DNA of 30,511 bases from a virus, in IMG/VR virus record IMGVR_UViG_3300025305_000089, positions 1-30,511 of that record. One strand, 5' to 3'. Below the pieces are notes generated by a model. That model was not told the origin of the DNA and searched no databases. It saw only the letters and a list, made by a program, of their open reading frames with translations. This document shows positions 3,967-18,824 of the stretch, one piece after another. Position 1 is the first letter of the stretch. Each line of letters starts with the position of its first letter. A program made the position numbers and the translations under genes.

Positions 3967-4377
3967 TTATTTGGTTAATCCTTTGGCTTTTTCGAAGGAC
4001 CTCATTCCCGCTACGCCGAGCATTGAAGTGACGATTGCGAGCAAGGGGCCAGTTTGAATCTCCGGGGCTGTTAAGTTTAATCCTGCAAACTTACTGTACC
4101 ATTCTATGCAGGGGGATAGAAGGAACTCGAATCCGAGAGCCAAGGCTCCCATCCAGCCGATCGCGGGCCGCCAGCCCGAAACAAATACGGACCGGTGACC
4201 AGCTTCTTTAGCGTTTACATCCAATTGCTTTTCAGCAAGTTTTTGCTGGATGCGTTGCATCAAAATCTTTTTATCTAATTTCTCTTCCTCTGAAGTATGT
4301 AACTCATCAATCACACCAGAGATTTGTTTTAAGGCTCCGTTTTTACCGCCTAACAATCCACTGATGAGGTTTAACAT
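3967..4377 (-). CDS. Holin, GTA-type three-transmembrane family
   Basis: A 136-residue protein. The first 65 residues are helical and charged. Then RSVFVSGWRPAIGWMGALAL (about 62-81) leads into a hydrophobic segment through GFEFLLSP. A second hydrophobic stretch, TGPLLAIVTSMLGVAGMRSFEK, lies at about 109-130. The S-G-W-R-P-x-I-G-W phrase is a hallmark of the GTA_holin_3TM family (PF11351) known from gene transfer agents and phages of alphaproteobacteria. It would form inner-membrane lesions that let the lysozyme at 2803-3228 reach peptidoglycan. Its start overlaps the stop of the 43-residue membrane protein gene (TAATG), so the two are probably one lysis unit. Confidence 0.85.
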   Translation of the reverse strand: MLNLISGLLGGKNGALKQISGVIDELHTSEEEKLDKKILMQRIQQKLAEKQLDVNAKEAGHRSVFVSGWRPAIGWMGALALGFEFLLSPCIEWYSKFAGLNLTAPEIQTGPLLAIVTSMLGVAGMRSFEKAKGLTK

Positions 4378-5073: not shown

Positions 5074-7486
5074 CCACTCTTCTTGGACTTTTTTTACTCT
5101 TTTCAATCTCTTTTTGCTTAGTTAAGTTAACATTAGCCCGTAATTGAGCAATATCTTCCTGCGATTGTATCTTGTCTTGTGTTAATCTAGCATCTTGATC
5201 CAATTTATCCTGATCGATACCTATTTTAGCCTCATCGGCGCGAGTTTTTCGATCAATGTCCTGTTCACGAAGATTAATTTCTTGTTGTTTAAGGTCTATG
5301 AGTGGATCTTCTCCTAATACTTCCATCATTTCTTGTTCTTCTGTTACCATTTCCTCAATCATTGAAGCAATCTTCTCGGCTATCTGTTGTTCCATTGCTT
5401 CCTGGAACTGAATTTGCAGTTCTTGAGGTAATTGACCACCATATTGTTGGGCTTGCTCTTGAATTGCTTGTGCATTTTCTTCTTCCACTTCCGCTCTAGC
5501 CTGTAAGCCCACATGTTCAACAATATGACCTTGTAAAATTGACATTACTTGAGGATTATTTTTAACTAAAATAGAAGACATGAACGCACGATGTGCATCA
5601 ATATGAGCTAATTGGTTTTGTTGTCTAAATGCCAAAAGAGGCTCTCCTTTTAAGGAAGCTGCATTTTCTACTGCTGGATCTTTTGGTTGAGGCGGTTCAG
5701 GAACAGGTAAAATAGTATCAATGTCCTTTACTCCTAGTGCCTGATACATACGATGATAGGCTTCATACATATTATGAGCCTGAGGATCGGCTTGTGCTAA
5801 TTGCAACTGTGTCTGTGCCAATGTCACACGCTGGGCCATGGAAAAAATATTTGGATCTGAAACAGGAATAATATCTATTTCATCACTAAAATCTTCTGCC
5901 TTTAAACTTGGAACCGCATCTTTTCCAACTTCATAGGGATACATTGGAGGAAGGGATTCTGCAAATATTTTTGCTAATAATTTAAATTCAATTTTTTGTG
6001 CATAATGTAGGCGCTTATGAATAGCTGACATAATACGAGCACCTCGTTCCATGAGGGCCATTGTAGTTCCGACAGGTGCATTGGATGCAACACTGTCCCC
6101 GATCTTTTGATCAGCAACAGAAGCAAATCGTGTTCCCGCTTCTACAACGAAGCCTAATAAAGCAAATAAGGTTTGGCTTGGTTCTTTATAAGGTAAAGGT
6201 AGCAACCCTTGGCGAAGATCGCCCGAAGGGGCGTCTACATCCCTGAATTCTCCTGGTTGGAGTGGATTGTCATCGTCTTTAATGCGCAGTCCTCGAGCTT
6301 TAAAACCCGCTGGGAGATTGGACAGCGTACCTGCATCGATAAGTTGTCTAAGAGCTGACGTTGCGGTTCTTGATAAACCCCCGAGCATGTGGATAAGACC
6401 AAAACCGTAAAAGCTAAAGCCAGGTAAGAACTTATAATGAACAAAATACTGTTTCTTTTTCTTCTTGGGATCTTCTTCATTGTAATTTCGGTAAATAGAA
6501 AGAACCTGTGCAGATCCCTCATCTAAGGTGACAATGTAAGGAACTTTAATTCCGTCTTCACTATCTATGCCTTCAATGTTTAAATCAACATGCATTTCCA
6601 ATAATTGATAATCCTCTTTTTGATAGGATTTTTTCATTCCTGAAATCTGATCTTCTTTCTCCTGAACTCCTGTTTCCGTGGCGGATACCATGAGATCCAC
6701 ATCGCGGTACAGTCCCGCTACTTGTAATTTTCTTACTTCATTTTTACTTCTACGAATAGTGTGAGTAACACGTTCGCATGACGGCAAGTCCGTTGCTAAG
6801 TAAGGAACATATAAATCATCTGAGGAAATAAATTTTGATACAGCGCGTTCCAGTCCTTCATCATAATAGACTTTTTTAAATGCCGATCCTGACAAAGGTA
6901 AATAAAATAATAATGAATCCAGATCAGGATCATATTCTTCCATAACATGGGAAATTTGATAATTCATATAGTCCTTCACCCGTTGAGCCTGATCCTCTTT
7001 TTGAGTGGTAATGTGTCCTAGAATTTGTGTATTAACCGGTCCTCCTGGTGGCAATAATTCTTTATAGGCTTGCGCTTGGAATTGTGTAATGGCTTCAGAC
7101 AGCATAGGGTGCGTGACACTGCTTGCTCCCGCAAAAGGCATTGTTCGTTCCTGATATTTAAATCCTAAAAGATCCAGTCCCTTTTTGTAGGTGTCTTCCC
7201 AATCCTGTCGTGACGCCTTGTCGTCCTCAAAAGCTTCCCGCAGCTCGTTGGATATTCTTCCCAATTGGGACTCTTCCAGAACTTCAGCCAGATTCATATC
7301 AAAACTGGTTTCAATAGGTCTTTCCTGTTCTCCCACAATAGCGCTTCCATCATCCAACAATTCTATGTCAGGTCGCGTTCCATCCTCTACTTGCATTTCC
7401 ACCATTTGCTGTATCGCTTGTTCCTGTTCTTCAGGAAATCCTGGTGGTGGGTTGGGAGTAAATCCAATAGGTCTGTCAATCGCCAT
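5042..7486 (-). CDS. Portal protein, P22-like type
   Basis: An 814-residue protein forming the dodecameric ring through which DNA is packaged and ejected. The N-terminal half carries portal hallmarks: DDKASRQDWEDTYKKGLDLL, the phrase PFAGASSVTHPMLSEAITQFQ around residues 110-140, then KAYKELLPP-type and LPLSGSAFKKVYYDE sequence. The C-terminal 200 residues are a long Gln/Glu-rich helical region (QAIQEQAQQYGG, LKQQEINLREQDIDRK), matching the helical barrel of P22-like portals and their unusual length. It starts with ATG overlapping the stop of the upstream gene (TAATG). Family membership is judged by motif and length; a podovirus-like morphology is inferred, not shown. Confidence 0.85.
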   Translation of the reverse strand: MAIDRPIGFTPNPPPGFPEEQEQAIQQMVEMQVEDGTRPDIELLDDGSAIVGEQERPIETSFDMNLAEVLEESQLGRISNELREAFEDDKASRQDWEDTYKKGLDLLGFKYQERTMPFAGASSVTHPMLSEAITQFQAQAYKELLPPGGPVNTQILGHITTQKEDQAQRVKDYMNYQISHVMEEYDPDLDSLLFYLPLSGSAFKKVYYDEGLERAVSKFISSDDLYVPYLATDLPSCERVTHTIRRSKNEVRKLQVAGLYRDVDLMVSATETGVQEKEDQISGMKKSYQKEDYQLLEMHVDLNIEGIDSEDGIKVPYIVTLDEGSAQVLSIYRNYNEEDPKKKKKQYFVHYKFLPGFSFYGFGLIHMLGGLSRTATSALRQLIDAGTLSNLPAGFKARGLRIKDDDNPLQPGEFRDVDAPSGDLRQGLLPLPYKEPSQTLFALLGFVVEAGTRFASVADQKIGDSVASNAPVGTTMALMERGARIMSAIHKRLHYAQKIEFKLLAKIFAESLPPMYPYEVGKDAVPSLKAEDFSDEIDIIPVSDPNIFSMAQRVTLAQTQLQLAQADPQAHNMYEAYHRMYQALGVKDIDTILPVPEPPQPKDPAVENAASLKGEPLLAFRQQNQLAHIDAHRAFMSSILVKNNPQVMSILQGHIVEHVGLQARAEVEEENAQAIQEQAQQYGGQLPQELQIQFQEAMEQQIAEKIASMIEEMVTEEQEMMEVLGEDPLIDLKQQEINLREQDIDRKTRADEAKIGIDQDKLDQDARLTQDKIQSQEDIAQLRANVNLTKQKEIEKSKKSPRRVDVQKNVRFDN

Positions 7487-10400: not shown

Positions 10401-10641
10401 CTATTTTTTTAACAGGATTGGCTAGGCCTTCAAACACATTAGCAATACCTGTAGCAACACCGCCCTCCAATGTTTGTCGCGTTTTTTTGGCGTTTTGGTG
10501 TTTTTCCCAATCCGTCAACTCTCTTTGTCCCCAGAACTCGGGTTTTACACGAATGTCCTTTTTCAGCCATTCATTAATTTTTCCCAGTACGCCTGGTTCT
10601 TCCGTAATCTGTTCCTCAAAAATATCTACATCATCCGCCAT
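7486..10641 (-). CDS. Large virion-type polyvalent protein with EIQSD motif
   Basis: A 1051-residue protein between portal and terminase. The N-terminus has VDIFEEQITEEPG, resembling a motif in the next gene upstream. Residues about 300-430 are acidic and low in structure. In the C-terminal half, VTFADEIQSDVLQNAKRMEE is followed by a long coiled region, then VPFKDRNEWGETLIKRDLYQ and WYAISPSKLIRDRYG. In order and wording these resemble an EIQSD-containing domain found in large polyvalent phage and mobile-element proteins. Such proteins are often carried in the head and ejected with DNA. It ends with EIIDIFEAA. No protease or transglycosylase motif was seen. Internal virion or ejection protein is the best guess. 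Confidence 0.55.
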   Translation of the reverse strand: MADDVDIFEEQITEEPGVLGKINEWLKKDIRVKPEFWGQRELTDWEKHQNAKKTRQTLEGGVATGIANVFEGLANPVKKIAGEDWDPGTFAELDAIIEDPESSTVQKASAYAQASPRLLLNISEALFGHTAQHFRERSDKYKEGMTTDEIVQAEVAEMNEGMGGALTSEDFKDIRLKSKVTELPWKKMLHVSTEFLTEFLPVLEPLWLVQGYGVKGMLNFFTNPKHPMRANVIHTLASTANINEEELEKMADHIAEISSKSHEGPQTIEPTGDVDEIIKGWADKEDIVLYSEDTTPAVGPPPGLAYGGDPEELSSGVAGDDPYFDLKELDLDLSPFELPQDLDLFEETKKIPSIPSKRDVFQAAKDAGYEEVEVANLLGKVPIWAVGGVEKAKILAQNLTKNEQGILRTITEKLGLTAKKPVEEVVEDIATTTTAVKKKPLKPISDSPEAAESVFYSNVEAKMMDPNTPESFATVDELFKFLHTRGISKPELEDNILSRYVAMAEKNGTPLIKNEMLEIIRQSPMRKVETVNYGWLGDKEAKYAGGNMETGLIPGTYRESVLYLDPKHIPLDPGKLSTFEGPTHGFSERYVIGWSRLSDRMAKLPVEKGITTTIDPKQMKLISKNVNKVQSQVNGLYASAYSKLFRKGEIDLRPIDQLTSREIKDTVNQFTFDLEALDEPLLKQIKQFEDKLTADKFKLDKMKQASKGEEIRVTFADEIQSDVLQNAKRMEEKFKEALGDLIDKNKIFREQEMLRESRGYQGRFNNMNPEVAEYFLKNKTIFRPIFQTAQEMQMFMDEFAKTQKIFTELAAAGKWPSKELMKRAEAARVTETKMLGELEKSLSEESMKILQPNVPFKDRNEWGETLIKRDLYQAAERLFVEKADDAATWYAISPSKLIRDRYGQAGDVSVPISQRTKDMKGIGMDEFYGGPNAVAPKTWQIVDRDGRVIKGKFASKDEARQYAHELGGGADYIVKAAEPKHYTSVLEKALIRAAKENNSEVKKIKVKTGPDTYTESFAIKLTPEMLLPHKTHRKDGGMVYTPEIIDIFEAA

Positions 10642-12280
10642 TATTATATCCTATCACTTCTTCAATCGAAGCGAAACCCCCATCTGCGTATTCAAATAAT
10701 TGTTTAGCTATGTCTGGAGGTAACTCTCCACCAGCGGCATCAATGAAAGGTTGGTACATCTGACCGACTTCTTCCGCTGTTTTTTCTAGTGATTTTCCAG
10801 CGCTAGGCAGATTCTTCTCATATACAATGAAATCAGTTTCAATGAGTTTTTTAGTAGTATCATCTAATTGCAAATAATCTATCAAGCGTACATTAGAGGC
10901 TGTATTGTCCCCTGTCTTGACTACAACGTGAGGCATTCCAATTCCAAAATCTGTGTTTGGATTTGTTTTTTTAAAATTATTAACAATAGTTTGTATGTCC
11001 TGTTTTATATCCAGTGCTTCTCTGTACTTTTTATTTATTACTAAGTTAATCATTTTTTCATTAAGTTTAAAAACCTCGTCTTCCATAGCACTTTTATTTT
11101 TCACTGCGGCGTTCACTGGTGTCATACCAGGTGCGAGTGTTTCCCCCTTATGGGATCCTTTTATAATCAGTCGTAAATTAGGTTTCTGATTTGTTCCACC
11201 AAAACGAATAGGTGTAATATGATCAATATCAAACCCTCCTGCTACATTTTTCTTAATAGGCTCTAAAAAATCACTTATTATAGGATCACGGTATATGGAA
11301 GATTTAGCGGAATTCCATGTTCCATCAAGATCCAGTAATTGGGTTTTTGCGTGCTTTAAGGCCAATCCCGTTGTCCTGTCCCCTATGGCAGTTTGTTCCC
11401 AAGCAGCTTTATTGGATTGTATGCCTCCTCTGGTTATATCTTTTTGTACACCACTTGCACCATAGCGCAGGGTGGTGGGAAGATGCTCTAGTTTTATATT
11501 GCTTCCTTGAAAGTCAAGCATTAGTTGCGCCAAATCTCTATCAGTCTGATATTTATTACTGCCTCCCGTCCCCTTAAAGGTACCGGGAAATATTTGTTTA
11601 TATTCATTTGCAAATGCTCTACTAAACTCCTGGTCACTCCATTTATAATTTTCTGGTTGTAAAGCTTTGGTATTTTCCAAAATTTCAAGAATCTTTCTTT
11701 TTGTGTGTAGGGAAGGTATTTTCATTACATACCCCGTATCTGGATCTATTCGTTCGGGCGTCAACGCCTTTATAATTTCTTTATTATCTTGAGTTGTACT
11801 TTTAACTTTAAACTCTTGTGAAAGTATACCGCTCTGAGGTTGAGTTTTAATCCAGTCCTTGTATTTTATGCCAGCAGCATTTTCTACGCTCTTCCAATTA
11901 TGACCAACATAACCGAGCTCATTGGCCACCGCTTCTTTTGTTTTTTGACCGGAAGCTATTAACTCAAACTGTTCCAGTAAATGTTTTTGTTTATCTTCAA
12001 CACTTAAAGCGTGCCAGGGTTCTCTTTTCTTTGGATCAACCTTGGCTTTGGCTCTTTGATACTTTTCTTGTGCAGGTGTCTTAATGATTTTTTCTTCAAA
12101 GATATCTACAATATCTTCCGTAGCGGGTTTTGTTTCAACCTTGGTTTTCGCCGGTAATTTTTCCACAGTGGAAGGCTTTTTTTTAAATCCTTTAATTAAA
12201 TCTATTAAAGCATCCAGGCCATGTTTTGCAACCGGAGCAACGGCTTCAACATATTTTAGTAAGGGGTATGGGTTTCCCAT
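10631..12280 (-). CDS. Virion-type protein with HNH-like motif
   Basis: A 549-residue protein directly downstream of the large terminase, overlapping it as TAATG; its own end overlaps the next gene by 11 nt. It has VDIFEEKIIKTPA near residues 58-70, a helical region around 85-140, and near residues 350-375 the phrase GGFDIDHITPIRFGGTNQK followed by NLRLI. D-H-x-x-P-x-x-x-G-G-x-x-x-x-x-N-L is the core of HNH nucleases, so a nuclease domain is possible, although a second metal-binding His was not confirmed. The C-terminus, YADGGFASIEEVIG, resembles Gly-rich ends of internal virion proteins. An ejected or head-associated protein with nuclease potential is an inference. Confidence 0.5.
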   Translation of the reverse strand: MGNPYPLLKYVEAVAPVAKHGLDALIDLIKGFKKKPSTVEKLPAKTKVETKPATEDIVDIFEEKIIKTPAQEKYQRAKAKVDPKKREPWHALSVEDKQKHLLEQFELIASGQKTKEAVANELGYVGHNWKSVENAAGIKYKDWIKTQPQSGILSQEFKVKSTTQDNKEIIKALTPERIDPDTGYVMKIPSLHTKRKILEILENTKALQPENYKWSDQEFSRAFANEYKQIFPGTFKGTGGSNKYQTDRDLAQLMLDFQGSNIKLEHLPTTLRYGASGVQKDITRGGIQSNKAAWEQTAIGDRTTGLALKHAKTQLLDLDGTWNSAKSSIYRDPIISDFLEPIKKNVAGGFDIDHITPIRFGGTNQKPNLRLIIKGSHKGETLAPGMTPVNAAVKNKSAMEDEVFKLNEKMINLVINKKYREALDIKQDIQTIVNNFKKTNPNTDFGIGMPHVVVKTGDNTASNVRLIDYLQLDDTTKKLIETDFIVYEKNLPSAGKSLEKTAEEVGQMYQPFIDAAGGELPPDIAKQLFEYADGGFASIEEVIGYNNGG

Positions 12281-13722
12281 TAGTAATACTGTCTTGGTTC
12301 GATATACATCGGCTCATCCTTGTAGTCGGATTCGAGTTGAACAAAATTTCCCTGACGGAAGCGCAGGAGAGCCTGCGTGGTTGAATCCACTAAATCATCA
12401 TGCTCACCATAAGGGAAAGCGGCGCATTCTTCAATCACTTCCTCCGCCCACCTCTCGTCCGGACACCATATGTGCCCCGCCTCGAAAAGGGGAGCGACCG
12501 AGTTGACGCGGACATGCTTGTCCTGTCCCTTGCTCGGCGTATAGGTCACAACGGGTATGCCCACCTGGCGCAGCTCGTGCGTCAATGGCAGTCCGCTGGC
12601 CTTGGCCTCAATCAGAATTGTTTCGGGTTCCCAGTACTTGTACTGTTCCAGCGCGATCCTTTTCAGTTCGGGAAAATCCCACCTTCCCTTTCGCATCGCC
12701 ACCAGGATCAGGTGAGGCGGTCCGTGCTCCACGGGACGGAAAACACCCCACGTGGTAATGGCACTAAAGTCCGCCGTTTCCTTTTTCGAATAGGCTGTAT
12801 CCAGGCTCTGGATGACATGCACCAAATCGGGAATCTTCTCCCTTGTCCACATCTTCCACCATTCCCGCTTGATGATTGATCCTTCCTCACTCGTCGGAGC
12901 CTGCTGCCACTGGGCTTGCCACTTCTGCTCGGACAGGGACGCTTTCACGCCTTCCAGTTCCTTCAGATTCCAGTACTCAGGCCACATCGGCTTGTCATTA
13001 AGGATGGCCGGAAACTCCACAATCTCCCACTGATCCGCCTTCGGCTCGCTCTGGGCTTTGAGAAGCATTCCCGTCAAATCCTTCATGCTCCATCTCGTCA
13101 TGACAATAACGATGGCACCACCAGGCTGAAGCCTCTGCCTCGGTCCTGAGGTATACCATTCCCATGCGTTGTCCAAAGCTGTCTCAGAAAGGGCATCCTG
13201 CTCGGAGTGGGGATCATCAATGACCAGCAAATCGGCTCCACGACCGGTGATCGCGCCCCCCGTTCCCGCAGCGAAGTACTCCCCGCCCTTGTTTGTCTCC
13301 CAACGGCCCGCGGCCTTGGAATCCTGTGATAAAGTCACACCAGGGAAAACATCCTTAAAATCCTGTTGCTCAAAAAGATTACGCACTTTTCTACCAAATC
13401 GATAGGAAAGCTCTGCGGTATGGGTAGTTTGAATAATTTTTAATTTAGGGTTCAGCCCCATCATCCAACCAGGAAACAAATTAGAAGCAAACTCTGATTT
13501 GGTATGTCTAGGAGGCATATTAACAATTAAGCGTTTAATCTCTCCACGTGAAACAGCTTCAAGTTTTTTTGCAATAACACGATGATGTGAACCTACAATA
13601 AATTCAGGCCATACTTTTTTTACAAAAGTTAAGAAGGAGGAACGGGACTCCTTAGCCACTTTTAGTTGAAGATTCCTTAATTCATATTTTAATAAGTCAG
13701 TTGGAATTGTTTTTGAAATCAT
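12280..13722 (-). CDS. Terminase large subunit
   Basis: A 480-residue packaging motor and nuclease. The ATPase has a Walker A-like loop at residues 68-80 (NMPPRHTKSEFAS), a common variant in phage terminases, and Walker B at 165-171 (LLVIDDP), followed by the coupling region. The C-terminal RNase H-like nuclease shows its acidic residues in SLDTAYSKK (about 310), LIEAKASG (about 370) and HDDLVDS (about 447). Length is normal. The ATG at 13722 has no Shine-Dalgarno sequence, and a predicted promoter places the transcript start at or next to it, so the mRNA may be leaderless. The small subunit gene lies about 4.5 kb upstream rather than next to it. Confidence 0.93.
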   Translation of the reverse strand: MISKTIPTDLLKYELRNLQLKVAKESRSSFLTFVKKVWPEFIVGSHHRVIAKKLEAVSRGEIKRLIVNMPPRHTKSEFASNLFPGWMMGLNPKLKIIQTTHTAELSYRFGRKVRNLFEQQDFKDVFPGVTLSQDSKAAGRWETNKGGEYFAAGTGGAITGRGADLLVIDDPHSEQDALSETALDNAWEWYTSGPRQRLQPGGAIVIVMTRWSMKDLTGMLLKAQSEPKADQWEIVEFPAILNDKPMWPEYWNLKELEGVKASLSEQKWQAQWQQAPTSEEGSIIKREWWKMWTREKIPDLVHVIQSLDTAYSKKETADFSAITTWGVFRPVEHGPPHLILVAMRKGRWDFPELKRIALEQYKYWEPETILIEAKASGLPLTHELRQVGIPVVTYTPSKGQDKHVRVNSVAPLFEAGHIWCPDERWAEEVIEECAAFPYGEHDDLVDSTTQALLRFRQGNFVQLESDYKDEPMYIEPRQYY

Positions 13723-13756: not shown

Positions 13757-13897
13757 ACTCTCCACTAAAGGGAAACTCTCGAGCGACCAGCTGCATTTAG
13801 GGGGTGTAGGGGTGTTAACATACTGTATTTGGTGTTTGAAGTCGATCGTAAGTACCTAAAGCTCTGGAGGAAGCAGGCGGAGTTGCCTGTTCAGGCA

Positions 13898-13925
13898 TAA
13901 AAAAAGGGCGGATAAACCGCCCTTC
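13898..13925 (-). terminator. Rho-independent terminator after the small membrane protein gene
   Basis: An 8-bp perfect stem (AAGGGCGG with CCGCCCTT, loop of 5) followed on the minus strand by seven T residues. It lies 20 nt after the stop at 13946 and separates the accessory island from the terminase operon. Just beyond it, 13874-13896 holds CAGGC, GCCTG and CAGGC in series, which can form two mutually exclusive small hairpins. The rest of 13723-13897 holds only the terL promoter and two doubtful short frames. Confidence 0.85.
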
Positions 13926-13945
13926 TGCCAGTCCCCTAGAGGAAA

Positions 13946-14113
13946 CTATTCAGTATCGTGTACAAATTCATAGGACTTGATCCAACAAATAGATAAAATT
14001 ATCAACACTACATCATTAAGTAGTGTGTATTTCATAAAGTTATAGTCGGTTAATAGGAAAGCGATCATTAAAGAGCAAACCATTAACATAATCATTTTAA
14101 TATGTTTATTCAT
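13946..14113 (-). CDS. Small two-helix membrane protein
   Basis: A 55-residue protein with two predicted transmembrane helices: residues about 7-22 (MIMLMVCSLMIAFLL) and about 33-45 (NDVVLIILSICWI). Its ATG overlaps the TGA of the upstream gene (ATGA), so it is translationally coupled to the 93-residue protein. It is followed 20 nt later by a strong terminator, so it is the last gene of the cassette transcribed from the promoter at 14416-14444. I do not recognise a family. Small membrane proteins in such positions may act in superinfection exclusion or lysis control, but nothing here shows it. Confidence 0.6.
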   Translation of the reverse strand: MNKHIKMIMLMVCSLMIAFLLTDYNFMKYTLLNDVVLIILSICWIKSYEFVHDTE

Positions 14114-14391
14114 CTGTTTTGAAACTCCCTCATCTTAGCTTGACCATTAGCAATTAAATTCTCTGCCCAAGCCTTAACCTCTGCACTTGCATTGGGGTTA
14201 AGTATTAATTCCTCAACCTCTGACTCTAACCATTTATAGAGTGCTTTCCAATTCAAATTAATAGTAATACTTTCTTGTTGGTTATCAACATCAGTATTAT
14301 TAGGATTAGTTGGTTGAGTGTTTTGTCTTAAACCGATTGTCTGATTTAAAACTGTTAGTCTATTTTGTAAGTCATTATTATTATCTGGCAT
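14110..14391 (-). CDS. Asn/Gln-rich small protein, unknown function
   Basis: A 93-residue protein. Residues 1-40 are polar and Asn/Gln/Thr-rich, probably disordered. Residues about 45-93 form a likely helical domain with NWKALYKWLESEVEELIL and AEVKAWAENLIANGQAKM. A GAGAGG-type ribosome-binding site precedes the ATG. It is the first gene of a two-gene cassette with its own promoter (14416-14444) and terminator (13898-13925). No recognised domain. It resembles the neighbouring island genes in being short, unknown and separately transcribed. Confidence 0.6.
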   Translation of the reverse strand: MPDNNNDLQNRLTVLNQTIGLRQNTQPTNPNNTDVDNQQESITINLNWKALYKWLESEVEELILNPNASAEVKAWAENLIANGQAKMREFQNR

Positions 14392-14415
14392 TTATGACCT
14401 CTCTTTCTATCTACC

Positions 14416-14444
14416 TTATTAATCCCATTACATTTGATAGTCAA
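14416..14444 (-). promoter_or_regulatory. Promoter P1 of the TGGGA family
   Basis: Minus-strand -35 TTGACT (14444-14439) and -10 TAATAA (14421-14416), spacer 17 nt, with the conserved box TAATGGGA ending one base before the -10. It lies about 25 nt upstream of the ATG at 14391. Four other promoters in the window share the TGGGA box. Confidence 0.75.
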
Positions 14445-14513
14445 ACTTTAATTTATCTTTTTTCTTTTTATTTTTTTACTTGACAAAAGTCAGAACGCCG
14501 TGCGGGGAACTTT

Positions 14514-14717
14514 ACTATACTATAGTACTCCAAGTTTCTTGGGTGACAATGGAATGGAGGTCAGCTGCTGCCAGCTGCGCGGGAACACTACTACTATAAA
14601 GCAAGGAATTCCCTGGTTTCAATGGAATGGAGGAACACAATCTTCCACACCCCCTGGGGAAGCCTTAACTATACTAATACCCACTTCCAAGTTTCTTGAT
14701 CGACAATGCAATGGACA
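14514..14717. repeat. Repeat block 1: three box A/box B pairs
   Basis: In the 374-nt gene-free stretch 14392-14765. Box A copies (like ACTATACTATAG, plus-strand reading) are at 14514-14525, 14588-14600 (degenerate) and 14668-14679. Box B copies (like CAATGGAATGGAGG) are at 14547-14560, 14620-14633 and 14704-14717. Start-to-start distances are 33, 32 and 36 nt. The first and third pairs also share CCAAGTTTCTT before box B. CAGCTG occurs twice at 14562-14577. No protein-coding frame of quality lies here. Confidence 0.8.
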
Positions 14718-14718
14718 T

Positions 14719-14750
14719 AAAAAAAGGGCAAAGTTTCCTTTGCCCTTTTT
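14719..14750 (-). terminator. Rho-independent terminator after the 137-residue gene
   Basis: A perfect 13-bp stem (14721-14733 with 14738-14750) capped, on the minus strand, by a GAAA tetraloop and followed by TT. The stem itself ends in five T residues, giving a seven-T run. It lies 15 nt past the stop at 14766. The A-tract on the other side makes it potentially bidirectional. Confidence 0.9.
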
Positions 14751-14765
14751 CACCAGAAAATAATA

Positions 14766-15179
14766 TTAAACAGCTAATTGAAAATCAGATAATTCTCTAG
14801 TTGAGTAACGACCAGAATCTATAGCCACTCGCTTGTCATCTATTGCCATAGCTTGAATAGTTTTATATTGTGTTGGAACTTTGCATTTGTGGTATTCCAA
14901 CTCGCCAAGTTTTTCTTTTACTAAAGCAGTATCAATCTTTGCACCAATCTTTTGAGAGATATGTAAAGAGTAATCTTTGCCATGTAAGAGGTTGGCGTTT
15001 TCGCTGATACCCATATCAATTAATAATTGACGATTTACTTTTAAGAAGTCAGCGATGATCTTTTGCATTATTAACGCTCTGCCATAAGCGTCTGCAATTT
15101 GCATTTTAGCTTTCTTGCTCATATTCTTACCTTGATGAGCTTTTTCTAAAACACTTAATATATTAACAGCTTTTGTCAT
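14766..15179 (-). CDS. Hypothetical island protein, 137 residues
   Basis: A soluble-looking protein starting MTKAVNILSVLEKAHQGKNM. Residues 1-65 look helical (SKKAKMQIADAYGRALIMQK). The C-terminal half has mixed strand and helix character, with YSLHISQKIGAKIDTALVKE and a conserved-looking DDKRVAIDSGRYSTRELSDF end. A GGA-containing ribosome-binding site (AAAGGATAACAA) precedes the ATG. It is a single-gene transcription unit with a promoter at 15215-15243 and a terminator at 14719-14750. I recognise no family. Arrangement and size suggest a moron-type accessory gene. Confidence 0.65.
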   Translation of the reverse strand: MTKAVNILSVLEKAHQGKNMSKKAKMQIADAYGRALIMQKIIADFLKVNRQLLIDMGISENANLLHGKDYSLHISQKIGAKIDTALVKEKLGELEYHKCKVPTQYKTIQAMAIDDKRVAIDSGRYSTRELSDFQLAV

Positions 15180-15214
15180 TTGTTATCCTTTCGACTTTCT
15201 AGTTAATTATATCC

Positions 15215-15243
15215 CTTATATATTATCCCACTTCATTTGTCAA
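15215..15243 (-). promoter_or_regulatory. Promoter P2 of the TGGGA family
   Basis: Minus-strand TTGACA (15243-15238) with a TATAAG -10 (15220-15215) at 17 nt spacing; TATATA two bases upstream is an alternative. The AAGTGGGA box is present but sits four bases closer to the -35 than in P1 and P3-P5, so this copy is the least regular. It precedes the gene starting at 15179. Confidence 0.65.
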
Positions 15244-15298
15244 TAAAATAATTTATTTATTTTTCCAACCGACCTTCCACTCACCTGCTGGGCTTCGG

Positions 15299-15579
15299 TA
15301 TACTATACTAGACGAGGAAATTCACCGAGTTCCAATGGAATGGAGGTAGCTGCGCCCGGGGAAGCACAGTCATCACGCAAATAAGGGCGGAAATCCACGA
15401 ATGTAGCTGATGGAGATGTTCTCTTCATGCCTGGTCGGCGAAGACTCACCATACTAAAGGGCAGAAAACAACGAAACGTGGTCAATGGAATGGAGCGACT
15501 GAAGTGCCGGTTCCCGTGGGCCCATCCTAAACTATACTATAGACAGGGGAAATTCGCCCGATGTACAATGGAATGGAGA
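15299..15579. repeat. Repeat block 2: three box A/box B pairs
   Basis: Within the 468-nt gene-free stretch 15180-15647. Box A is at 15299-15311, 15451-15460 (degenerate) and 15531-15542. Box B is at 15333-15346, 15483-15496 and 15566-15579. Start-to-start distances are 34, 32 and 35 nt. The first and last pairs share a similar linker (AGACGAGGAAATTC and AGACAGGGGAAATTC). A segment at 15500-15530 containing GACTGAAGTGCC recurs before box A in block 4. No convincing coding frame was found. Confidence 0.8.
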
Positions 15580-15588
15580 TATTCTCTT

Positions 15589-15627
15589 TATGCGTGATCC
15601 CGTAAATACTTTTCGGGATCACGCATA
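15589..15627. terminator. Long hairpin after the 46-residue membrane gene
   Basis: A 14-bp uninterrupted stem (15589-15602 with 15614-15627) with an 11-nt loop, about 20 nt past the stop at 15648. It lies where the other island genes have terminators but lacks a T-run on the minus strand, so it may be a processing signal or a weak terminator. Its central 22 nt recur exactly at 19870-19891 beside gcrA. Confidence 0.55.
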
Positions 15628-15647
15628 GGAAATAGTTTACTATGCAG

Positions 15648-15788
15648 CTACGGCGACCAGGGAATCGTAGTCCAGTCCACCAGGTTCATGAGCCCAGCAG
15701 CCAGCAGGATGGTAAACGCCAGGACCGGCTGCGGGAAGCAGAGAAATGCGCCAATGTAAACAATTAAAAGAATGTAGAAGTAATGCAA
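15648..15788 (-). CDS. Small membrane protein, probable TTG start
   Basis: A 46-residue protein from TTG at 15788 that would be almost wholly hydrophobic: residues about 4-18 (FYILLIVYIGAFLCF) and 22-36 (LAFTILLAAGLMNLV) form two transmembrane helices. The TTG is preceded by GGAGG 9 nt upstream and lies 1 nt past the stop of the preceding gene. The alternative ATG at 15836 has no ribosome-binding site and would overlap the upstream gene by 47 nt. Function unknown. It forms a two-gene unit with the 110-residue gene, driven by the promoter upstream of that block. Confidence 0.5.
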   Translation of the reverse strand: MHYFYILLIVYIGAFLCFPQPVLAFTILLAAGLMNLVDWTTIPWSP

Positions 15789-15789
15789 A

Positions 15790-16122
15790 TTAAGTCGCCT
15801 CCACCATATCTTCCAGATGACTCCACGCTTCAGCATGCTGCTGCGGGCTCAGGGTCACCTTAGCACCGTCGTACCAGTCCAGGTACCAGTATTCAATGCG
15901 ATGGACACTCTTATCCGGATTAATGTAGATCCTGAACTCATCGCCAGGGCCTCCCCAGGAGAGCTGCCAACGCCAGTAGCCTTCAAGTTGGTCGTCCCAG
16001 GTCTTCGGCTCCACGTAATCAAAGCAAAGCCCCTCCACTGTCTTGAGATCTTTCAACCTGTCTTCAAATTCTCCTTGAACCAGCTGCGCGCAGCTATGTA
16101 AACGTTTTGTACTTGTGTTCAT
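15790..16122 (-). CDS. Trp/Tyr-rich hypothetical island protein
   Basis: A 110-residue protein, unusually rich in Trp and Tyr in its second half (GYWRWQLSWGGPGDEFRIYI and HRIEYWYLDWYDGAK). The pattern suggests a small beta-rich fold, with a helical tail ending SHLEDMVEAT. A strong AGGAAGG ribosome-binding site precedes the ATG. Base composition looks more GC-rich than in the neighbouring replication and structural genes, hinting at separate origin. It is first in a unit transcribed from the promoter at 16240-16268, with a leader of about 110 nt. No family recognised. Confidence 0.6.
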   Translation of the reverse strand: MNTSTKRLHSCAQLVQGEFEDRLKDLKTVEGLCFDYVEPKTWDDQLEGYWRWQLSWGGPGDEFRIYINPDKSVHRIEYWYLDWYDGAKVTLSPQQHAEAWSHLEDMVEAT

Positions 16123-16239
16123 TCTTTTCCTTCCTGTTTTAATGCGTCCTTTTCACGGTATATTAAACGGTTTCTAGAAGCGGACGCAGTCTCCTGGTCT
16201 TCAGGCCTAGGCTATTAGTGCTCACCTGATCCTGTTACT

Positions 16240-16268
16240 TATATAGTCCCACTTTATCCGTTAGTCAA
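16240..16268 (-). promoter_or_regulatory. Promoter P3 of the TGGGA family, with long leader
   Basis: Minus-strand -35 TTGACT (16268-16263), 17-nt spacer ending AAGTGGGA plus one base, -10 TATATA (16245-16240). The transcript would carry a leader of about 110 nt before the ATG at 16122. That leader contains a 7-bp inverted repeat (TGCGTCC and GGACGCA) whose second arm lies about 20 nt before the ribosome-binding site. Confidence 0.8.
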
Positions 16269-16330
16269 GGGTAAAACCAAAAGAACTTCCGTCACCCCAG
16301 TCAGCTGCTGCGTGCGTTGAGAGCTCCTTA

Positions 16331-16377
16331 ACTATACTATACTAGCCACCGAAGGCGAGCAATGGACAATGGACAAT
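16331..16377. repeat. Repeat block 3: one box A/box B pair
   Basis: In the 310-nt gene-free stretch 16123-16432. Box A is extended here (ACTATACTATACTAG, 16331-16345). Box B has the variant CAATGGACAATGGACAAT (16360-16377), in effect a tandem CAATGGA. Distance between starts is 29 nt. CAGCTGCTGCG lies at 16300-16312, between the repeat and promoter P3. Confidence 0.75.
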
Positions 16378-16405
16378 AAAAAAGGCGAGGATTGACCTCG
16401 CCTTT
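16378..16405 (-). terminator. Rho-independent terminator after the small helical gene
   Basis: A 10-bp perfect stem (AAAGGCGAGG with CCTCGCCTTT, loop of 5). On the minus strand the second arm ends in TTT followed by TTT, a six-T tract. It lies 28 nt past the stop at 16433 and directly abuts box B of the repeat block. Confidence 0.9.
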
Positions 16406-16432
16406 AAGGAGTTAATAGTGAAAAAATATTTT

Positions 16433-16639
16433 TTAGTTTTCGATATAGCCTCCCCCATTTTGAATTTCAGCTTCCCGATTTATTCGGTTGGCTCTGTCTG
16501 CTCCCTCTTTCATGGGAGGAACAACAGAATTATAATGCCCTAGAATCTTTTCCAGCGTTGCATTATTTCTATTGAGAGCTTCGGTAATGCCTTTTAATGT
16601 GGCACATACCATGTCCATATTTTCATCAGATAATACCAT
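16433..16639 (-). CDS. Small helical island protein, unknown function
   Basis: A 68-residue protein from ATG at 16639 (MVLSDENMDMVCATLKGITE). This start is preferred because GGAG sits 7 nt upstream. An in-frame ATG at 16651 would add four residues, but it overlaps that ribosome-binding site and has none of its own. The protein looks helical to about residue 40, followed by a polar tail ending in a Gly-rich stretch. It is a single-gene unit with a promoter at 16670-16698 and a terminator at 16378-16405. No recognised domain. Confidence 0.6.
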   Translation of the reverse strand: MVLSDENMDMVCATLKGITEALNRNNATLEKILGHYNSVVPPMKEGADRANRINREAEIQNGGGYIEN

Positions 16640-16669
16640 ATCTTTCTCCATTTCTGATTATTAGATTTC

Positions 16670-16698
16670 TTTATACTCCCATCTTATCCCATAGTCAA
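16670..16698 (-). promoter_or_regulatory. Promoter P4 of the TGGGA family
   Basis: Minus-strand -35 TTGACT (16698-16693), 17-nt spacer ending AGATGGGA plus one base, -10 TATAAA (16675-16670). It drives the 68-residue gene; the predicted start is about 12-25 nt from its alternative start codons. Confidence 0.8.
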
Positions 16699-16757
16699 GT
16701 TTTATTTTTTTTATTTTTCCTGACTGAAGTGCCAGTCCTGCACAGGGACCATCCCTG

Positions 16758-17165
16758 ACTATACTACAGTAGAGTGGCGAGAAACTCGGGCAATGGACAA
16801 TGGAGATCCCTGACCAGCTGCGCGCTGCTGCGTCCGGATCGTCGCTCATCACCCTTGAAGATGGCGGAAATCAGCCAATGCAAATTCAACAACCACCTGC
16901 TTCCCCGGGAGGGACTGGGCTGGGGAGCTGCACCTAAATAACAAATAAGTGGCGGAAAACGGCGACAATGCGTAATGGAAATGGACACTTCCCGTGCGGC
17001 ATCCTGCCTGGTACGCCGGACTCACCTTATACTACCGCAGTTCGTGGCTGTTTTTCGCCAATGGACAATGGAGAACATCTCCTGACACAGGATGCGCCCG
17101 GAAGACCGTCCCATTTTATTACTGACTAGGACTGGGCTGGGGGAATGGGCAATGCAGAATGGAGG
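16758..17165. repeat. Repeat block 4: degenerate box A/box B copies
   Basis: This covers most of the stretch 16652-17125 and runs into the nuclease gene. Pairs: box A 16758-16772 with box B 16791-16804 (33 nt), and box A 17028-17038 with box B 17059-17072 (31 nt). Unpaired box B variants lie at 16966-16985 and 17150-17163. The segment GGACTGGGCTGGGG occurs twice (16912-16925 and 17129-17142), and CAGCTGCGCGCTGCTGCG lies at 16815-16832. Short open frames here are GC-rich and lack ribosome-binding sites, so I treat the stretch as non-coding. Confidence 0.7.
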
Positions 17166-17539
17166 AAGAGGGACGCCAGCTGCTCCCTGGGCCAGGGAAC
17201 CAGTGGGAATGACCAACTGGGCGTGGCCAATGCGCCTTCGCTCGCAATGGAATGGACAACGGCTCCTGGAAAGACACAGAGTAAGCTCTGAGAGAGGGTC
17301 TGGGCCATGATAAAACTTCTGCCACCACGCAAACTATACTTATAGTTCCACATTATTTGGTGAGGCCGTAAATTAATCTTCTTACTTGTAATTACTTTTA
17401 GTTCCACCCAGAAAGGAATGCTGTCTTTTATTCCATGAACATCAGGAACACCAGGTGTAGCCCAATTCTCAAAACGAGTCCAAAATATATCTGGCATATT
17501 TTCTTTCATCAAATGCCAAAGTTTAGACTCTGGTTTCAT
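17126..17539 (-). CDS. VRR-NUC-type nuclease with repeat-derived 3' end
   Basis: A 137-residue protein from ATG at 17539, overlapping the stop of the upstream gene (TAATG). The PD-(D/E)XK core of VRR-NUC nucleases is visible: PGVPDVHG with Asp33, FWVELKV with Glu46 and Lys48, and PHQIMWNYKYSLRGGR around 59-74. Such phage enzymes cut DNA, possibly junctions, and are small stand-alone proteins. The last 55 residues still fit the family pattern, but their DNA contains box B copies at 17245-17258 and 17150-17163 and is visibly more GC-rich than the first part. The final 11 residues look like an extension made from repeat sequence. No terminator follows. Confidence 0.7.
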   Translation of the reverse strand: MKPESKLWHLMKENMPDIFWTRFENWATPGVPDVHGIKDSIPFWVELKVITSKKINLRPHQIMWNYKYSLRGGRSFIMAQTLSQSLLCVFPGAVVHSIASEGALATPSWSFPLVPWPREQLASLFLHSALPIPPAQS

Positions 17540-17697
17540 TAAAAAATTAAAACTAAAATTACAATAATGACAAAAAGTATTTTCCAGCTGCCCCACATCA
17601 AAGAAGCAATAATCAACGTCCACCACTCCCTGTCAACATCAGCAGTTATTTTATCTTTGCAATCCCCTAAAGGAATTGAATCTCTTTTATCTACCAT
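17539..17697 (-). CDS. Small membrane protein upstream of the nuclease
   Basis: A 52-residue protein from ATG at 17697, chosen because AGGAGG lies 7 nt upstream; an ATG two codons earlier sits too close to that site. The N-terminal half is polar (MVDKRDSIPLGDCKDKITAD). Residues about 27-52 are hydrophobic (WWTLIIASLMWG and ILFVIIVILVLIF), giving one or two membrane passes. It overlaps the end of the upstream gene by 11 nt and the nuclease start by 1 nt, so it belongs to the same operon. No family recognised. Confidence 0.6.
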   Translation of the reverse strand: MVDKRDSIPLGDCKDKITADVDREWWTLIIASLMWGSWKILFVIIVILVLIF

Positions 17698-17881
17698 GCG
17701 CATACCTCCTCTTGTCAATATTCTTGGACAACTCATATAGTTTATCCGTCCACATAGCACAACCAACTACATCACCTACTAATCCTCTGGCTTTTATCAT
17801 TTTCTTTAAACGCTTTACACGCCACCAGAATAACACTTCCTCCTTATCCATAGGGGAAATAATTTTACCATTGGTACTCAT
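17687..17881 (-). CDS. Small basic protein, unknown function
   Basis: A 64-residue basic protein, MSTNGKIISPMDKEEVLFWW, continuing with RVKRLKKMIKARGLVGDVVG and a helical end (WTDKLYELSKNIDKRR). Its start overlaps the TGA of the upstream gene as ATGA, and its end overlaps the next gene. It is probably helical and could bind nucleic acid because of its charge, but no defined motif is present. Operon membership is the best evidence that it is a real gene. Confidence 0.55.
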   Translation of the reverse strand: MSTNGKIISPMDKEEVLFWWRVKRLKKMIKARGLVGDVVGCAMWTDKLYELSKNIDKRRYAHGR

Positions 17882-18096: not shown

Positions 18097-18115
18097 GACT
18101 TTCTCCCTTTTTAAT

Positions 18116-18203
18116 GATGCCTGGCAACAGACTTTGGTCTAGGCCACCCTTGCAGTTTTATCCTAGCTTCATCTAGCTGGGTGCAAAAAAAGTACCAGGC
18201 ACC
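18116..18203 (-). promoter_or_regulatory. Structured 5' leader RNA of the nuclease operon
   Basis: Between promoter P5 and the ATG at 18096. An outer 7-bp stem pairs 18118-18124 (TGCCTGG) with 18195-18201 (CCAGGCA). Inside it are a 4-bp hairpin (AGAC/GTCT, 18129-18140) and a second arm (CACCC 18145-18149 with GGGTG 18179-18183) enclosing a CTAG/CTAG hairpin at 18163-18176. This gives a multibranched fold typical of cis-regulatory RNAs. It matches no riboswitch class I can name. Pairings were read by eye. Confidence 0.45.
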
Positions 18204-18250
18204 GTGTTTACTGTCTTTTTTTTATATGTGCTACAGCTACACATGATTAG

Positions 18251-18279
18251 TATATACTCCCACTTTATTAGATAGTCAA
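18251..18279 (-). promoter_or_regulatory. Promoter P5 of the TGGGA family
   Basis: Minus-strand -35 TTGACT (18279-18274), 17-nt spacer ending AAGTGGGA plus one base, -10 TATATA (18256-18251). The -35 overlaps the TGA stop of the small terminase gene. It drives the operon starting at 18096 through a leader of about 145 nt. Confidence 0.8.
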
Positions 18280-18824
18280 GACTTTTTTTCAACTTTTTTC
18301 ATTTCCTTTAAAACCTCGAAATCAGCTGCAATACTGTACTGTTCTTTAAGCTGTTGCAACTTAGCCTCAACATCATCCCGGCTCATTGAATCAATCGTTC
18401 CTGTAAGAATTTCTTTTTTGTCAACATACAATCCTGCGATCTGACCTCTCCGAGTCTCTGCCGTCACCGCAGCATTCCAATTCCCTGACGTACTGGCCTG
18501 ATCCCTAATTCTTGCTAATGTAGAAAGTGATCTTTCCTGTGTGCATTTGTACCTTTCAACAATGGCCCTTCGCTCATCTTCAATGGCTTTTGCAACCAAT
18601 GGAAACTTCTGAGGATTCTGCAGCTCCGATGCACGAACCACGGCAGATCCTTTTGCGTATCCAGCCTCAATGGCACAATGCATGGCAGTTTTTAATCCCT
18701 CAGAATGGACTAACAATATAATAAATTTTCTTTGTTTCCCTGTAATCTTGGGATCAAACAAAGAATCCGACAAACCAGAGGGAATAGTCACTTCTTTTGT
18801 TTCAGTTTGTTTCTGTTGTTCCAT
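18276..18824 (-). CDS. Terminase small subunit
   Basis: A 182-residue DNA-recognition subunit of the packaging motor. Residues about 27-75 match the Terminase_2 pattern: ITGKQRKFIILLVHSEG, then AIEAGYAKGSAVVRASELQN with the NP and a helix following. A helical oligomerisation region follows, with QASTSGNWNAAVTAETRRGQ and IAGLYVDKKEI, and the tail is Lys-rich. Length is normal for the family. The start ATG lacks a Shine-Dalgarno sequence and lies 11 nt from a TATATA -10, so the leader would be only a few nucleotides. The large subunit gene is 4.5 kb downstream, beyond the cassette island, which is unusual. Confidence 0.8.
   Translation of the reverse strand: MEQQKQTETKEVTIPSGLSDSLFDPKITGKQRKFIILLVHSEGLKTAMHCAIEAGYAKGSAVVRASELQNPQKFPLVAKAIEDERRAIVERYKCTQERSLSTLARIRDQASTSGNWNAAVTAETRRGQIAGLYVDKKEILTGTIDSMSRDDVEAKLQQLKEQYSIAADFEVLKEMKKVEKKS

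Follow-up and report, generated by a model that had tools for sequence, protein, structure and literature searches.

In the 30,511-nucleotide stretch of viral DNA analysed here (the window), a unit made up of a box A, a box B and a promoter P recurs on the minus strand, and we assign a probability of about six in ten to the reading, drawn from sequence comparison, that it is a control element coupled to promoters, acting probably at the level of DNA, in an island whose genes are transcribed individually, and that it can be compared to the PeSL cassettes of T4-type phages. The latter are reportedly the subject of Arbiol 2010 and Comeau 2014. The window is part of a phage like HTVC023P and DSL-LC04; in fact, its nearest records are the HTVC023P-type pelagiphages and DSL-LC04, so that it does not belong to the T4-type myoviruses. 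The cassettes are placed between the two DNA-packaging genes, with TerS, the small terminase subunit (18276..18824; PHROG 51, E 1.9e-9), as the left border of the island and TerL, the large subunit (12280..13722; PHROG 38, E 5e-114), as the right one; these and all features given below lie on the minus strand. The gene order TerS-NUC-e-g-h-TerL is fixed in over 20 independent contigs, with A, B and P in the gaps of e, g and h.

The gene called NUC (17126..17539) encodes a small nuclease/helicase-like protein (PHROG 2165, E 1e-15; PHROG 93, endonuclease). It is followed by genes d (16433..16651, 72 aa), e (15790..16122, 110 aa), f (15648..15836, 62 aa, overlapping e), g (14766..15179, 137 aa), h (14110..14391, 93 aa) and i (13946..14113, 55 aa). 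The products of d, e, g, h and i are unknown proteins, and any role for these genes is putative; f matches PHROG 29323 (E 4e-4) and i, weakly, PHROG 25713. The structure model of e is good (pLDDT 88) and gave no convincing match against PDB and viral models; that of g is poor (pLDDT 44).

The initial annotation had described a repeated intergenic plan in the four gaps 17125-16652, 16432-16123, 15647-15180 and 14765-14392 (gaps 1 to 4), and we found that gene ends and starts fit these gaps exactly and that the plan is conserved. A promoter is present in 4/4 gaps, a terminator with a T-run in 2/4 and a hairpin lacking one in 1/4, while the first gap is indeed devoid of hairpins. The two strong terminators fold as described, with -16.3 kcal/mol and a T-run after gene d (16378..16405) and -18.2 kcal/mol after gene g (14719..14750). 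The long hairpin reported after gene f (15589..15627, 18 bp) is a strong fold as well (-24.1, z -9), but it has no T-run and is therefore no standard terminator. A further terminator predicted by folding closes the array at 13898..13935, and the sequence from there to TerL contains neither an A/B block nor P.

Promoter P, with the consensus TTGACTAT...RTGGGANTATA, is sigma-70-like and bears TGGGA in its 17-nt spacer; four exact copies occur in the window versus 0 in shuffles. The claim that each gap carries a promoter of one family holds exactly for gaps 1, 2 and 4, where P precedes genes d (16674..16698), e (16244..16268) and h (14420..14444), and in gap 3 by way of a shorter-spacer relative ahead of gene g (TTGACAAATGAAGTGGGATAATATA, 15219..15243, family D2). 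However, a fifth promoter had been missed: the P of the first unit (18255..18279), an exact match to TTGACTANNNNATNNNRTGGGANTA, overlaps the end of TerS and has no A/B block upstream, which means that A/B is not required by every P. A separate promoter serves every gene or gene pair, in keeping with the separate units proposed earlier. Furthermore, 64 copies of P share a single geometry, and in the scored genomes 50 copies were located within the TerS-TerL interval and 0 outside it. We regard this interval as a probable accessory island, the small genes of which would be transcribed individually. In HTVC027P, the island genes gp30, gp33 and gp34, which lie between TerS (gp29) and TerL (gp40), have their own expression clusters (PMC12753301).

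Box A comprises TCCATTSCATTG and variants with tandem CCATT, and box B is TAGTATAGT. When one mismatch is allowed, box A has 8 matches in the window, compared to 0.43 in shuffles (maximum 2); exact A boxes are found on the minus strand only, at 14547-17256, and exact B boxes are confined to 14514-16766. Box A thus exceeds what shuffles give, and the repeats are not limited to the gaps, since they start within the 3' end of the NUC gene (A at 17245-17256), where about 40 C-terminal codons coincide with repeats and homology to relatives ends near 17245. Gap 1 contains an upstream A-type box (TCCATTGTCCATTG, 17059..17072), the A box at 16791..16804 and a B box at 16758..16766, and gap 2 an A box at 16360..16373 followed by two overlapping copies of TAGTATAGT at 16331..16344. 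Three A/B pairs span 15302..15577 in gap 3, with A boxes at 15566-15577, 15483-15494 and 15333-15344 and B boxes at 15531-15539, 15448-15456 and 15302-15310. The block of gap 4 (14514..14715) has A boxes at 14704-14715, 14620-14631 and 14547-14558 and B boxes at 14668-14676 and 14514-14522.

In the window, the last A box lies 106, 105, 101 and 114 nt upstream of the -35 element in gaps 1, 2, 3 and 4, respectively, a regularity that the initial annotation does not mention. Across genomes, 69 of 70 windows upstream of P contained box A, versus 1.4% of shuffled and 0.8% of outside windows, and the distance from A to -35 has a median of 105 in the e slot (IQR 103-107) and 104 in the g slot (101-105), reaching 195 nt in the h slot; the A-B and B-P distances are anticorrelated (r -0.53). 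In each slot from the NUC gene to TerL, the control unit starts with a gene end, in many cases bearing an intrinsic terminator; then come box A and, some 33 nt further, box B, and after these a tract rich in A/T and lastly P. Since the distance by which A precedes -35 stays near 105 bp whatever the gene, A/B most likely represents a promoter-coupled regulatory site on DNA, perhaps for a phage-encoded protein, and we infer regulator binding from this arrangement. The spacing could also persist by shared descent of the slots, without selection. A structured RNA in the A-B unit was considered and dropped because folding of 50 units gave no signal (mean z -0.44). Likewise, box B was rejected as a divergent or T7-type promoter, as neither a -35 nor a conserved recognition stretch is suitably spaced from it, and the A-B pattern as a host repeat, since only three bacterial genomes matched, near a rough chance estimate, and none of them with island genes.

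Over 38 TerS-TerL intervals, 149 A boxes were counted on the coding strand and 1 on the other strand, with 4 outside the interval. Such strict strand specificity would also be expected if box A acted at the RNA level as a Rho-loading (rut-like) site halting read-through before the next promoter, and the A transcript is in fact C-rich and G-poor (C 0.35, G 0.11), unstructured, denser in YC than the TerL coding sequence (0.29 versus 0.09) and positioned at gene ends, about 100 nt ahead of the next promoter. Nevertheless, we hold a rut-like site to be unlikely: the C>G bubble extends over only about 40 to 60 nt and is in many cases surpassed by others in the island, strong intrinsic terminators already precede A in several gaps, and what matters for a termination zone is a minimum length rather than a spacing constant to a few bases.

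The single orientation of the A boxes and their restriction to the TerS-TerL interval are also compatible with sites recognized by TerS (pac/cosB-like) or with iterons of a replication origin accompanied by DnaA boxes and AT-rich B boxes. This interval is also enriched in consensus DnaA boxes (44 inside, 5 outside), and in HTVC023P tandem repeats come directly after TerS and again after the nuclease gene. However, the DnaA boxes, too, keep a fixed place relative to the -35 element, ending 16 to 18 nt before it in 20 of 21 scored cases, and A boxes are tied to the promoter in all e, g and h slots, with none between TerS and NUC. The GC skew of the window, moreover, shows no lasting polarity switch across the island, and we consider a packaging or origin function unlikely. 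Sister phages carry a consensus DnaA box 16 to 18 bp upstream of -35, which at about -58 occupies the position of a class-I activator, and under a promoter-coupled control element it would join their control unit.

The two halves of the island differ in gene turnover. In the A-rich half from NUC to TerL the genes are nearly fixed (e in 15/17, g in 17/17 and h in 17/17 genomes of the clade), whereas turnover is high in the half from TerS to NUC; all 104 A boxes of the 17 genomes fall in the former and 0 in the latter. Gene exchange, which the initial annotation suggested, was supported. Gene d is present in 4/17 clade genomes, in its slot only in the closest relatives, with distant homologues in L068/L076; an unrelated DUF7222 gene (k3) takes the place of e in contigs L085 and L093; and the sister clade has k4 in the g slot. 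Profile comparison rejected k3 as a diverged e (probability 0.2%) and k4 as a diverged g (0.8%); a defence-gene library searched with the island genes returned nothing except two weak matches for k4. The nucleotide identity of k3 to the sister donor clade is 0.88-0.92, compared to 0.57, 0.58 and 0.67 for the backbone genes TerS, NUC and TerL. In this swap, mapped in one slot of two closely related contigs, the left junction is placed within the AT tract ahead of the promoter, past the recipient's own A/B block, and the local A/B block and the local f gene are kept. Cassette exchange does occur, and the relatives demonstrate that a gene can be swapped while the repeat boxes of its switch remain; in the mapped exchange, promoter and gene moved together and left the A/B block stationary.

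The same data bear on the earlier view that the A/B blocks are recombination sites bounding mobile cassettes. That one slot can hold different genes (k3 for e, k4 in the sister-clade g slot, d inserted) agrees with it, as does the variation of repeat number among close relatives: L002 has one A/B pair in gap 3 where the window has three, and lacks about 230 nt of repeats found at window positions 15346-15578. Such copy-number change in tandem is the sole exchange between boxes that we observed. The comparison of relatives did reveal a different gene beside a retained A/B block, as anticipated, but with the breakpoint outside the block; every A box falls in the half whose genes are conserved, leaving the half of high turnover devoid of them; unit likeness within a genome (0.698) and between genomes (0.688, p 0.15) gives no homogenisation between slots; and a fixed distance from A to the promoter would not be expected of such a site. 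A role of the blocks as recombination substrate is therefore not supported and appears very improbable.

Upstream of gene e, the leader (16123..16240) corresponds to module M7 in the window phage. Gene e leaders hold a covarying RNA motif without an Rfam entry; a search of Rfam with the window gave no match at gathering, and a relaxed threshold only chance-level matches.

The initial annotation recognised no described phage system with this plan, overlooking the PeSL (promoter/stem-loop) cassettes of T4-type phages (cited in PMC4503421 and PMC3950731), which are reported to combine an intergenic stem-loop terminator and an early promoter preceding small genes in a region of gene exchange. With these the window shares intergenic promoter units before small genes and a region of gene exchange. 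Different from PeSLs, its core is an A/B pair at a fixed distance upstream of an island-only promoter in HTVC023P-related phages, some gaps have no stem-loop, and, where a shared unit sequence is reported to mediate shuffling in PeSLs, the blocks here do not track turnover and the mapped junction, from one slot only, is outside A/B. Morons, defined by their own promoter and terminator and by recent single-gene transfer (PMC2147016), resemble gene d, which has its own P and terminator and is absent between the same neighbours in some relatives, and k3, which has its own promoter and is present or absent among relatives; genes e, g and h are kept in the whole clade and therefore are no morons by presence/absence. 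The start-associated sequences (SAS/ESAS) of cluster K mycobacteriophages (PMC3203893) are likewise short repeats tied to a gene set, in one orientation and with the same gene families, but SAS is located at the translation start (ribosome-binding site) with inverted repeats, whereas A/B is direct and about 105 bp upstream of the promoter. Closest at hand, HTVC023P-type pelagiphages and DSL-LC04 have a TerS-TerL interval with sparse small genes. The cultured relative HTVC023P presents the same plan and promoter type, with a nuclease gene behind which come tandem repeats and promoters that contain ATGGGATATAA; its intergenic repeats differ, those of HTVC023P and DSL-LC04 being unrelated to A/B, and DSL-LC04, a GC-rich phage, has TGTTTGT-ACAAACA palindromes instead.

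It is possible to hypothesize, more tentatively than for the control element itself, that all small island genes stand under a dedicated promoter class (TTGACTAT...TGGGA...TATA), that a two-box element about 105 bp upstream, replaced in sister phages by a DnaA box of the host at the class-I position, ties their expression to a phage regulator or to the host replication initiator, that genes are exchangeable under a fixed control address, and that a new structured RNA motif (M1) often opens the leading-slot mRNA. P together with box A provides a sequence signature for finding individually switched genes in uncultured relatives, and two candidate regulators, an A/B factor and host DnaA, may be tested. 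The island also illustrates how gene trading under a fixed control address can take place.

The window, an IMG/VR virus record of 30.5 kb with a GC content of 42%, is closest, in its large terminase (TerL) and DNA polymerase, to the Pelagibacter phages HTVC023P and HTVC027P, phage 023Pt_psg01, and DSL-LC04. The repeats are located between the genes for the small terminase (TerS; 18276 to 18824) and TerL (12280 to 13722), both on the minus strand, which border an island whose genes all lie on the minus strand. All the elements described by the initial annotation were found in the window, and folding agreed with the two strong terminators claimed, while the hairpin at 15589 to 15627 is without a T-run. 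Exact copies of the short repeat box A (TCCATTSCATTG) occur in the window on the minus strand only, at 14547 to 17256, and exact B boxes (TAGTATAGT) fall in the same stretch; with one mismatch allowed, box A gave 8 matches versus 0.43 expected. The downstream promoter, P, has four exact copies versus none in shuffles, and a relative lies at 15219 to 15243 (minus strand). As measured on the window sequence, the distance from A to the -35 element is 106, 105, 101, and 114 nt in gaps 1 to 4. At 17126 to 17256 (minus strand), the C-terminal codons of NUC, the gene for a small nuclease/helicase-like protein, extend through repeats, an A box among them, and homology to relatives is lost there.

Scanning viral contigs for A, a gap, and then B returned 22 stretches, all coding for one common phage protein set and carrying the boxes in the TerS-TerL interval; three bacterial-genome matches to the A-B pattern contained none of the phage genes. 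Across 38 intervals, 149 A boxes were on the coding strand, 1 was on the other strand, and 4 were outside (1.04 versus 0.014 per kb, inside versus outside). In the scored genomes, P occurred 50 times inside the island and 0 times outside, and all 64 collected copies have one exact geometry in common. The repeated plan is genuine and conserved, has a narrow localisation, and is coupled to promoters. In the positions (slots) of the small genes e, g, and h, box A precedes P in 69 of 70 windows, compared to 1.4% of windows after shuffling and 0.8% of windows taken from outside. Its distance to -35 is 105 nt (IQR, 103 to 107) in the e slot and 104 nt (101 to 105) in the g slot, with a wider spread in the h slot, where several relatives have a DnaA box. 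The A-B and B-P distances are anticorrelated (r = -0.53), as if the total A-to-P distance were kept. It is mainly because this total looks maintained that we prefer a promoter-coupled role of the A/B blocks, the main caveat being the shared descent of the slots.

The initial annotation had proposed that genes could be exchanged by recombination between the blocks. What it had itself named as counting against this view, an unchanging gene order in related phages, is largely what was found for e, g, and h: across the clade, TerS is followed by NUC, e, g, h, and TerL in a fixed order. When the islands of 17 genomes of the clade were split at NUC, the TerS-NUC half had 0 A boxes in 12.8 kb and 20 gene families, each in at most 7 of the 17 genomes, while the NUC-TerL half had 104 A boxes, with e in 15 genomes and g and h in 17 each. 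Since the A-rich half keeps its genes and the A-free half varies, A boxes are not markers of turnover. Gene exchange itself does occur: in L085 and L093, from separate metagenomes, k3, a DUF7222 gene unrelated to e, occupies the e slot. The k3 of L093 shares 0.88 to 0.92 identity with that of L055, L057, L061, and L062, versus 0.57 to 0.67 for TerS, NUC, and TerL. The left junction of the swap falls in the AT tract ahead of the promoter, past the recipient's own A/B block, and the f gene downstream is of the recipient type. Between L085 and L093, identity is 0.98 to 0.99 in NUC and TerL but drops to 0.87 in k3, and of the two only L085 has the extra genes k10 and k11, in a changed order; these differences suggest that exchange has happened more than once. 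The number of tandem repeat units within a gap is also variable, about 230 nt being missing from L002.

A small structured RNA motif, M1 (core UACCGAAUCCGUUUNGAAG set in covarying stems; e.g., L004 at 1783 and L035 at 6749), often precedes e in relatives, where the e mRNA probably begins with it. Among 10 sequences, pairing is kept in 97% of pair cells and both sides have changed in 6 pairs, which 0 of 500 shuffles equalled; the five inner P1 pairs, of several pair types, are intact in 199 of 200 cells across 40 distinct copies. An exact-core scan found 60 distinct contigs, 47 with M1 before e, and a few copies lie ahead of other genes. The window lacks M1 and has another module as its e leader, and an Rfam scan of eight related contigs, several with M1, M2, or both, matched neither module. 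Leaders of e in L008, L020, L082, L090, and L096 hold further modules (M2, M3, M4, and M5) in mosaic-like combinations, and M4 is present in the divergent L022 too. L100 (reverse complement, about 3985 to 4290) has an A-B-P unit followed by M2 and M3, with no open reading frame, and may encode a noncoding transcript. L090 has a manA RNA (RF01745) match at 5586 to 5771 (minus strand), whose score of 34.6 bits (E, 2e-5) does not reach the gathering threshold. In the window, a long leader behind the TerS-end promoter (18100 to 18245, minus strand) is predicted to fold strongly (-39 kcal/mol; z, -1.8). The stretch just before TerL (about 13800 to 13880, minus strand), distant from A boxes, is in many islands the strongest in C over G.

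In a second clade, box A is CTCCATTCTCCATT, and a consensus DnaA box ends 16 to 18 nt before the -35 of a different promoter. DnaA boxes are strongly limited to the island (44 inside versus 5 outside). In L029-L065, L051, and others, consensus boxes (TTATCCACA) lie upstream of TerL, at about 550 and 1150 nt, and 16 to 18 bp before an island-promoter -35, a position that suggests DnaA regulation of these phage genes. The cultured pelagiphage HTVC023P has the layout of the window but other repeats, and its promoters end in ATGGGATATAA; three 33-nt tandem repeats after TerS (L108, 13049 to 13145) and three 58-nt repeats after the nuclease gene (10523 to 10694) bear no sequence relation to A/B. 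In HTVC027P, three genes of the TerS-TerL interval are in expression clusters of their own (PMC12753301). The island resembles moron cassettes and the T4-type promoter/stem-loop cassette (PeSL) in its private gene promoters and swappable genes, but our tests do not class it as a PeSL. The proposal of gene exchange is partly right, but the A/B blocks, whose regulator we infer, as we do the functions of the island genes, make better sense as control elements than as sites of recombination.
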